From assembly GCA_021817255.1 (NCBI GenBank), contig JAKAVO010000010.1, positions 1 to 60,443 of the forward strand: a stretch of DNA of 60,443 nt, given 5' to 3'. This document shows positions 55,899 to 58,990 of this stretch, in pieces. This DNA comes from Thermoplasmata archaeon (GTDB taxonomy: Archaea; Thermoplasmatota; Thermoplasmata; Thermoplasmatales; Thermoplasmataceae). The translations under genes and the position numbers were made by a program. Each line of letters starts with the position of its first letter. Positions within the stretch are counted from its first letter, which is position 1. The notes under the pieces are model-generated. The model worked only from the letters and a program-made list of their open reading frames with translations, did not search any database and was not told the DNA's origin.

Positions 55899-56918
55899 AT
55901 GGTATTAACAAAGGTTTTTTGCTTTAAATGCGGTTCTCCAAGAGAAGAATTTGAACTTTTATGCAATACGTGCAATTCCCCATTCATCATCAGAGTTTCC
56001 GGGCCATATGAAAAGAAAACCCAGGACAATTTTGACTATATCGAAAAACCACTTTTCCCAATGGATTTAAGGACACCTTTAATTAAAACTGATCTCTTTA
56101 GTGCGAAACTTGAATATTTCAATCCCACACTTTCATACAAGGACAGGGGAATGAACACACTTTTCTCATTCTTGAGGGAGAAGAAATATATCACAAAGGG
56201 TGAGCAAGTAAGTGAAGATTCCTCAGGCAATGCAGGAGCTTCGTTTGCACTGTTTTCTAAAATGCTTGATCTCAAACCTACAGTTTTCGCATCAAAATCA
56301 GCAAACGCGAACAAACTGAAGCAGATTGAAAGCTATGGTTCAAAAATCAAGAAAATAGAAGGATCACGAAAAGATGTTGAAGACAGCGCCAGAAACAGTG
56401 GAATGAAGTACCTGGGGCACCAGTACTGGCCTGAATTCTACGATGGATTCAGGGCAATCTCCTATGAAATCTTTGAACAGATGGAAAAACTTCCTGACAA
56501 TATTTTGATTCCCTTTTCCACCGGGACCCTATACCTGGGCATATTTGAAGGGTTCTCGCATCTTCTCCAGAATGGATTGATAGAATCCATGCCTGCACTA
56601 TGGGCATTGCAGCCAGAGAGGGCCAGCGGGATGTACAATATGTTGAATAACATAGCCAGGGAACCTTCAAGCTCCATAGCAGATGCATTGACAGGCGTGC
56701 TCCCGCTCAGGCATACACTGCTAAGCTCCATAATAAAGACATATGGCAGGTGTGAAACTTTAACTGAAGATGAAATTATTCAGGGCAAAAAGGATCTGGC
56801 AAAAGTGGGGATTGATTGTGAGTATAGCTCAGCAATAACATATTCTGCGCTTAGAAAATTTAATCTGAATAAAAACTCTCTTTTGATACTGACCGGGCAT
56901 GGGATTAAAAATATTTAG
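55899..56918 (+). CDS. Threonine synthase-like PLP enzyme with an N-terminal zinc ribbon
   Basis: 339 residues. A small zinc ribbon (CFKC 8-11, CNTC 25-28) precedes the fold-type II PLP core: TPLIKTDLFSAKLEYFNPT, Schiff-base Lys in SYKDRGM (about 85), and EDSSGNAGASFALF for substrate binding; STGTLYLGIF is the phosphate loop (GTG-type). Threonine synthases convert phosphohomoserine to threonine; the protein is shorter than most (about 350-400), so a related beta-eliminase is possible. It follows EF-2 but has its own leader region. Confidence 0.8.
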   Translation: MVLTKVFCFKCGSPREEFELLCNTCNSPFIIRVSGPYEKKTQDNFDYIEKPLFPMDLRTPLIKTDLFSAKLEYFNPTLSYKDRGMNTLFSFLREKKYITKGEQVSEDSSGNAGASFALFSKMLDLKPTVFASKSANANKLKQIESYGSKIKKIEGSRKDVEDSARNSGMKYLGHQYWPEFYDGFRAISYEIFEQMEKLPDNILIPFSTGTLYLGIFEGFSHLLQNGLIESMPALWALQPERASGMYNMLNNIAREPSSSIADALTGVLPLRHTLLSSIIKTYGRCETLTEDEIIQGKKDLAKVGIDCEYSSAITYSALRKFNLNKNSLLILTGHGIKNI

Positions 56919-57364
56919 TCAATCTTTGGATCTTTCCTGTCACATATTTCTTTTCCATTCAATACCAGTGAGTAAGTTACCTTTACTCCACCCCTTCTGG
57001 CCAGAATTGTCACACTGCAGTATTTTTCAAGTGACAGATTAATTGCCCTCAGTGCCTGTTCTTCTGATATGTCTGAATCAATAGAGTAAGTAAAGTTCGC
57101 ACTTTTTAGTACCCTTGGCTCTTCCTCCTCCCTCTCTGCATCCACCTTCACGCTGAAAGATTTTATCTCCTTTCTCATCCTTGATATTATGAGCAAAACA
57201 TCATACGATGAACACCCAGACATTGCAAAAAGCATTGTCTCAGTTGGAGTATAAACATTTGGGTTGTTGGTAATAGGATCCCTGAGATATACTGTTTCCA
57301 TCTCTTCAGAATCGCTCTTGAGCCCTACATTTTTTTCATAATGAAATGATATAGAATAGGTCAC
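56915..57364 (-). CDS. OsmC-family protein
   Basis: 149 residues. OsmC/Ohr proteins reduce peroxides with two cysteines. Here they are the Cys in MSGCSSYDVLLI (about 51) and the Cys in EKYCSVTILAR (about 113), the expected spacing. The start is a GTG that overlaps the DUF1641 stop (GTGA). Cotranscription with SQR-like and DUF1641 genes points to sulfane-sulfur or peroxide handling; many OsmC-like proteins of such operons are untested. Confidence 0.85.
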   Translation of the reverse strand: MTYSISFHYEKNVGLKSDSEEMETVYLRDPITNNPNVYTPTETMLFAMSGCSSYDVLLIISRMRKEIKSFSVKVDAEREEEEPRVLKSANFTYSIDSDISEEQALRAINLSLEKYCSVTILARRGGVKVTYSLVLNGKEICDRKDPKID

Positions 57365-57834
57365 TCTGTGTCAACCTTTTTTAAAAGTGATCCAAGGGTC
57401 TTAAGGGCATTCAGGACAGCACTCAATCCAGCTGCAATTTCAGGATCCTTTAACATTCCCATAAGCCTCAGTATAGAAAAATTCTCAGGCTGCTTAGCAC
57501 CCTCTATCATTGACAGAAGGACATCTTCGCTATTATACAGCAGCAAATTCAGGGCAGATTGTGAAGTCTTTCCTGAAACAGAAGCCATAACAGCAAGAAG
57601 GCTGTTCATCATGGAAATGCTGCCAAGATGAAGTTCTCTCTTATCCAGGAGTGATGTGTACGCTTTTGTATTTCCCGGCATATTTTCAGTCAGTATTTTT
57701 TCAAGCACTTCAATGTTCCCCGAATCCTTGAATATTTTGACAAGATTCAAGACACCAAGAAGAGCCTGGTCGTCTCCTATTAATTCTGACAGTGCAATTT
57801 CCACCTGATCTTTTTCATTTTTTTCACTTTCCAT
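57361..57834 (-). CDS. DUF1641 family protein
   Basis: 157 residues, mostly helical; LLGVLNLVKIFKDSGNIEVLEKIL and the C-terminal LRLMGMLKDPEIAAGLSAVLNALKTLG fit DUF1641, a family regularly found beside SQR-like flavoproteins in sulfur-metabolising microbes. Its biochemical role is not known; binding to the flavoprotein or the membrane is a reasonable guess. The ATG at 57834 has GAGGTG 8 nt before it; a GTG at 57843 would add three residues. Confidence 0.8.
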   Translation of the reverse strand: MESEKNEKDQVEIALSELIGDDQALLGVLNLVKIFKDSGNIEVLEKILTENMPGNTKAYTSLLDKRELHLGSISMMNSLLAVMASVSGKTSQSALNLLLYNSEDVLLSMIEGAKQPENFSILRLMGMLKDPEIAAGLSAVLNALKTLGSLLKKVDTE

Positions 57835-57844
57835 TTTTAACACC

Positions 57845-58990
57845 TCACAAAAATCCCTGCGAATAACTGCCGAAGAACGAATGATACGAGTACAGTTTCA
57901 GCAAATAATCGGTCTTGCTTGGCTTTCCTTCGCTATATTCCCCATCGTTTTCAATGACAATATTTGTAGCCCTCTCATCTTCTGTTATAAGGTAGTCGAT
58001 GTATACCGCTCCCTTATAGTCTTCAGGGTCTGGATACCCACTTATGTGGTGTGCAATTTTCGCTGTGATATAGTCCAGTTCCACATGGTTAATGTTCCAG
58101 TAATTGGACGTAAATAACGGTTCCATAGACGATATAAAAACCTCTGGATAATTCTTCACATTGAGGTTTTTGAAATTCATCTCTATTGGTGAGCTGTCAG
58201 TTCTTGGAAAACCCGCATTCAATAGGTAATCCTTCATCCTGGAAGGTGAGAATATAATAGGAATATCATATTTCACTGCGCTACCATCTTTGGACTGAAG
58301 TTCCTTGTTTTTTACATTCAACTGTTCCAGCTTGAAGCCATATGTTGTCTTTACCCCCTTGTTTTGAAGGGCATTATCGATCCTTGCATGGAACTGCTTA
58401 TTTTCAATTATGACTTTGGATGAGTTCAAATATGTAATTTTCACATCTTTATATATAGGATTTCGGCTGAAATGGTTTGCAAGCAATATTGCAAGGTTAG
58501 CTCCAACAATAGGGCTTCTCGAATGTGTCCCATCCTGGTAGATGACAATCTCTCCCCTCTTAATATTTAGAAGATCTTCCCTCAGCCTGAGGGAATCCTG
58601 AACAGTATCAAGCGTTCTGGCATCTTCTGAAAATCCCGATATGGATGTTGGATCTCCTTCCACCGGATTTGTTACAAGGAGGTAGTCATACCTTACAACT
58701 TTTCCATTCCTTGTGTTTAAGCTTTTATCTTTCAGGTTGAGAGAAACAACCTCATCCTGAATATACTCCATGTTTGTATGCAGAACAGAGTTGATGCTTC
58801 TCCTCAACAGGTGGTGATCAACCAGTGATGATGGAATAAATATATTGGCATCATCAAATTCAACGTTTGGCTGCCTGCCTATGATTATAATCTCAATCTC
58901 TTTCTTATTTGTACGATTCGCCAGCTTATTTGCAGCCATAATGGCCGACTCCTTGTCACCAAGAATCACAACCCTATCAGGAACTTTCAT
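57845..58990 (-). CDS. SQR-like flavoprotein homologue lacking all cysteines
   Basis: 381 residues, similar in layout to sulfide:quinone oxidoreductases (two-dinucleotide-binding-domain family): a first strand VVILGDKESA (about 7-16), YDYLLVTNP (about 100-108), IPIIFSPSRM and a C-terminal region without the usual amphipathic helices. There is not one cysteine in the whole chain, while true SQRs need two or three. The FAD motif GxGxxG reads GDKESA, keeping only the first Gly. It therefore cannot work like a classical SQR and may not bind FAD. AGGTGA precedes the ATG. It heads an operon with DUF1641 and OsmC. Confidence 0.7.
   Translation of the reverse strand: MKVPDRVVILGDKESAIMAANKLANRTNKKEIEIIIIGRQPNVEFDDANIFIPSSLVDHHLLRRSINSVLHTNMEYIQDEVVSLNLKDKSLNTRNGKVVRYDYLLVTNPVEGDPTSISGFSEDARTLDTVQDSLRLREDLLNIKRGEIVIYQDGTHSRSPIVGANLAILLANHFSRNPIYKDVKITYLNSSKVIIENKQFHARIDNALQNKGVKTTYGFKLEQLNVKNKELQSKDGSAVKYDIPIIFSPSRMKDYLLNAGFPRTDSSPIEMNFKNLNVKNYPEVFISSMEPLFTSNYWNINHVELDYITAKIAHHISGYPDPEDYKGAVYIDYLITEDERATNIVIENDGEYSEGKPSKTDYLLKLYSYHSFFGSYSQGFL

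Follow-up and report, generated by a model that had tools for sequence, protein, structure and literature searches.

Closest described systems and the three-gene operon

The described systems closest to this locus are the type III sulfide:quinone oxidoreductases (SQRs; NCBIfam NF049943), the DUF1641 subunit ForE/YjgD of the Bacillus subtilis formate dehydrogenase ForCE (PDB 8rqz), and the YhfA-type OsmC proteins (PRK10738; PDB 1ml8). SQRs that carry both catalytic cysteines (two-Cys SQRs) are encoded elsewhere in the family in DsrE-TusA-SQR-DUF1641 operons, which bears out, for this family, the view taken in a preliminary description of this DNA that DUF1641 is a true SQR neighbor. The formate dehydrogenase ForCE depends on ForE for its coupling to menaquinone (PMC8808070), a function shown for ForE only. 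The SQR fold also occurs in ATPTT1 of the Tetrahymena mitochondrial ATP synthase (PDB 6ynv), which holds NAD instead of FAD (PMC7583250). A limited literature search for DUF1641 with SQR or OsmC found nothing. To our knowledge, no link of YhfA to SQR-like or DUF1641 genes has been described.

The stretch of DNA analyzed here (the window; 60,443 nucleotides) belongs to the acid-loving archaea related to Cuniculiplasma and encodes an SQR-like protein, a DUF1641 protein, and an OsmC protein in series (Table 1). Since only ~1 bp separates the SQR-like gene from the GTG start of the DUF1641 gene, which in turn overlaps the OsmC gene by 4 bp, the three are arranged as an operon. The preliminary description had placed this operon at 57361-58990; the SQR-like and DUF1641 genes do lie within that interval, but the OsmC gene falls outside it. 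The products matched Pfam Pyr_redox_2 (1.5e-6), PF07849 (DUF1641; 1.2e-7, 31.9 bits against a cut-off of 21), and PF02566 (OsmC; 1.2e-13, 51.7 bits against a cut-off of 27.5), respectively.

Table 1 Genes and motif positions of the SQR-like locus in the window.
Feature	Position	Strand	Description
SQR-like pseudoenzyme (very probable)	57845..58990	minus	381 aa, no Cys
DUF1641 protein	57361..57843	minus	160 aa from GTG at 57843; 157 aa from alternative ATG at 57834
OsmC/YhfA-like protein	56915..57364	minus	149 aa; both conserved Cys present
First FAD motif, residues 11-16	58943..58960	minus	GDKESA; GDGAAG in two-Cys relatives
Second FAD motif, residues 107-109	58664..58672	minus	TNP; ATG in relatives
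First catalytic Cys site	58514..58516	minus	Ser159
KNKE hairpin, residues 227-230	58301..58312	minus	near-invariant in group, variable in two-Cys SQRs
Third FAD motif, residues 288-289	58124..58129	minus	SM; GD in relatives
Second catalytic Cys site	57995..57997	minus	Asp332

Each product resembles its described counterpart yet departs from it in a specific way. The SQR-like protein shares with type III SQRs its fold, length, full-length alignment, DUF1641 neighbor, and conserved C-terminal end, but it lacks both catalytic cysteines and the FAD motifs, and its gene adjoins OsmC rather than DsrE-TusA. NF049943 was its nearest NCBIfam model (1.9e-35, 122.5 bits versus a cut-off of 525), though this cut-off does not separate the groups, as two-Cys relatives (288-345 bits) also fall under it. 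The DUF1641 protein matched ForE/YjgD along its length but weakly (ForE1 was the top PDB match of its profile, E 0.012), and its partner here is an SQR-like protein instead of a molybdenum formate dehydrogenase; the predicted structure of DUF1641 alone was a poor model. The OsmC protein is nearest to YhfA, which it resembles over ~96 residues and in both conserved cysteines (present in 24/24 aligned copies), and differs in its linkage to SQR-like and DUF1641 genes. The OsmC linked to an SQR-like gene is usually the only one in a genome of this genus, and its cysteines are the only conserved ones left in the operon.

Fold and loss of the catalytic and flavin motifs

An AF2 model of the SQR-like protein built from 14 sequences (pLDDT 82, pTM 0.82) was weak in loops 47-61 and 290-300 and in the last eight residues. 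Structural comparison (Foldseek, VIA-align) ranked SQRs first (Z 32, rmsd 3.0-3.6 Å over ~350 residues), confirming the SQR layout that had been proposed from the sequence, and the match to type II NADH dehydrogenases (NDH-2) was less close (Z ~28). We therefore rejected assignment to another flavoprotein family such as NDH-2 or flavocytochrome c, as the fold favors SQR. The two dinucleotide-binding domains and the C-terminal domain of the SQR fold are present; the catalytic cysteines and FAD motifs that complete an SQR are not. The C-terminal helix showed no strong amphipathic moment.

The preliminary description drew attention to a protein with no cysteine at all. That is true of the 381-residue protein, but the bare count carries little significance: at the cysteine frequency of the window (0.62%), 2.4 residues would be expected and none would occur with a probability of ~0.09, and cysteine is likewise missing from 12 of the 48 other window ORFs with at least 150 aa. 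Orthologues mostly contain one stray cysteine each, at non-homologous sites. With a chance of ~9%, the zero count was rejected as the finding, and the meaningful observation is positional: both catalytic cysteines and the FAD motifs are lost in 15/15 clade orthologues.

In two-Cys relatives, the catalytic cysteines lie in the contexts CPPAPYE and ACTTVTG. All 15 clade members have lost both sites together with the ATG motif and the GD aspartate, and 13 of them also the second glycine of GxGxxG, the other two reading GDGESA; the first glycine (G11) is present throughout. The broken GxGxxG motif and the missing sulfide-oxidase cysteines noted previously are thus both real, and mapping cysteines and glycines across homologues showed that the loss is conserved in many species and extends to the ATG and GD motifs. 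Loss of catalysis is well supported. Absence of bound FAD is suggested by the same motifs, although motif loss alone is no proof of flavin loss. The protein might instead still bind a nucleotide, whether FAD in a modified fashion or, like ATPTT1 (6ynv was among the structural matches to our model), NAD, and function as a sensor of redox state or of nucleotides or as an NDH-2-like reductase free of cysteine. Retention of G11 in all members, a related group with FAD motifs but no catalytic cysteines (see below), and the NAD held in the SQR fold of ATPTT1 are consistent with this idea; against it stand the missing ATG motif and GD aspartate (15/15), the missing second glycine (13/15), and the poor prediction of loops 47-61 and 290-300, which homology would place facing the flavin, and we consider it unlikely.

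Distribution, descent, and selection

A search of 61 genomes recovered orthologues at 80, 71, 55, 46-39, and ~30% identity. In a profile search of 77 genomes of the family, 15 matches exceeded 500 bits and the next scored 261 bits, a gap that is partly by construction because 12 of the 15 clade members were in the search profile. These members represent two genera of one Thermoplasmata family, the window's genus with 11 of its 12 genomes and a second genus with all four (15 of 16 in total), and named records among the relatives include Cuniculiplasma sp. and E-plasma. Every complete clade locus has the order SQR-like-DUF1641-OsmC. The sixteenth genome (G007; window's genus, assembly 86% complete) apparently lacks all three genes, its OsmC and DUF1641 being other copies. 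A second SQR-like copy with one in-frame TAG, a possible pseudogene, was seen in a sister-genus genome (G074:C49:47058-48185).

In a tree built by a quick method with SH-aLRT support only, the window's protein falls in a group of 29 rows, nearly all of which, where flanks are readable, share a chromosomal location, with EF-2/PALP on one side and RpoL on the other. A few members of this wider group (L058, L094, L095, L098) have no OsmC or an unlinked one, and a sign test of OsmC linkage against cysteine loss on the tree had only 3-5 independent pairs and hence no power. The KN(K/R)E hairpin is near-invariant across the group, L063 being the exception to its variability in two-Cys SQRs; on sequence grounds, it is a candidate partner interface.

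The relatives of the clade preserve intermediate states. A sister two-Cys group keeps both catalytic cysteines and all FAD motifs, and a middle group (L043, L051, L054, L056, L084, L087) has neither cysteine at the catalytic sites but keeps the FAD motifs. Beside RpoL at L045:7409-10208, five genes encode DsrE, TusA, a two-Cys SQR, DUF1641, and OsmC; L045 lies among the two-Cys group in the tree, and its operon looks like the ancestral arrangement. L043 has kept TusA and lost the cysteines. From the L045 and L043 arrangements, the sulfur-transfer partners and cysteines appear to have been lost first and the flavin motifs later, while DUF1641 and OsmC stayed. Since some of the 29-row group (L085, L094, L095, L098) kept cysteines, the losses need not have been a single event. 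The SQR-like gene descends vertically from a two-Cys type III-like SQR; the proposed undescribed branch of the family is indeed conserved, and is better defined as a stepwise descendant of such an SQR. A different DUF1641-linked SQR-like clade (L067, L063, L090, L093, L101, L102) has only the first catalytic cysteine (CTPAPLE), with the second lost (GALM) and FAD motifs intact.

The window's genome also encodes a two-Cys SQR (G000:C11, L062:6221-8119) with DsrE and TusA upstream and no DUF1641 nearby. The SQR-like protein could have a regulatory or structural function toward this active enzyme, as a hetero-oligomer or decoy, lending it the DUF1641 that the enzyme itself lacks in this genus. 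Such a role would suit the several two-Cys SQRs that have DsrE-TusA and no DUF1641 nearby (L062, L050, L069, L100) and the single DUF1641 of the window's genome, but completeness of that genome is 78%, a second SQR accompanied by a separate DUF1641 occurs elsewhere in the genus (L067, L063), and the OsmC linkage would go unexplained; we regard this role as rather improbable.

Close clade pairs had dN/dS of 0.05-0.10, like two-Cys SQRs and neighboring genes, and frames were full-length and without stops in 15/15 genomes. Such low ratios are not those of decay, and recent decay was rejected: the close homologues share the loss across species instead of retaining the cysteines. In the complete genome G010 (1,938,699 bases), which we take to be C. 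divulgatum S5, counting genes onward from KorAB (1334954-1337774), with no tRNA between, reaches the orthologue at 1348098 as the 14th. As KorAB is CSP5_1378-1379 in C. divulgatum S5 (PMC5155288), the orthologue should by gene counting be CSP5_1393, and this identification is probable. CSP5_1393 is reported from the C. divulgatum proteome as an expressed "sulfide:quinone oxidoreductase" (PMC7285479). That the gene is a decaying pseudogene without function is hardly credible, as the lost catalytic motifs and the apparent absence of the whole operon from G007 stand against low dN/dS, intact frames in 15/15 genomes, a near-invariant KNKE motif, and an orthologue probably detected in a proteome.

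Possible role of the SQR-like protein and its partners

Judged from sequence, the SQR-like protein is very probably a flavin-less and catalytically dead but selected subunit, i.e., an SQR pseudoenzyme. That it also serves as a scaffold for DUF1641 and OsmC/YhfA is the reading we favor, but a closer call, and we hold the whole statement with about as much belief as doubt. As a scaffold, the SQR-like protein would form a complex with the co-encoded DUF1641 and OsmC/YhfA thiol protein at the cytoplasmic face of the membrane, the retained SQR shell and C-terminus providing a docking platform. With no conserved cysteines left in the operon outside OsmC, thiol, peroxide, or persulfide chemistry of any kind would fall to that protein, which may be as likely a client of the SQR-like protein as DUF1641 is. 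In the manner of ForE in formate dehydrogenase, DUF1641 may contact the membrane or the quinone pool. That a complex forms and docks at the membrane is inferred, as is the direction in which any electrons or sulfur would flow. The most specific version, in which a former sulfide oxidase has become a flavin-less membrane receptor that couples OsmC/YhfA to the quinone pool via DUF1641, is improbable; if true, the thiol chemistry of SQR would be done in trans by OsmC, in a new quinone-linked persulfide or peroxide complex.

ATPTT1 is a precedent for repurposing of the SQR fold: like the SQR-like protein it has this fold, and it is a subunit of a larger membrane complex without FAD. It differs in being eukaryotic, in binding NAD with a cysteine kept near it, and in having unrelated partners. 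The locus described here would be a prokaryotic case, in which an SQR turned into a pseudoenzyme that is itself conserved and whose intermediate stages survive at a single chromosomal location. Two families that are poorly understood, DUF1641 and YhfA-type OsmC, would also be brought together in a complex amenable to testing. Cuniculiplasma genes of this type annotated as sulfide:quinone oxidoreductase (probably CSP5_1393) are no evidence for sulfide oxidation.

Elsewhere on the same contig (window 2934-4321), a rhodanese gene overlaps a metallo-beta-lactamase-fold gene whose product weakly resembles the sulfur transferase/dioxygenase Blh and glyoxalase II; this pair possibly functions in persulfide metabolism.
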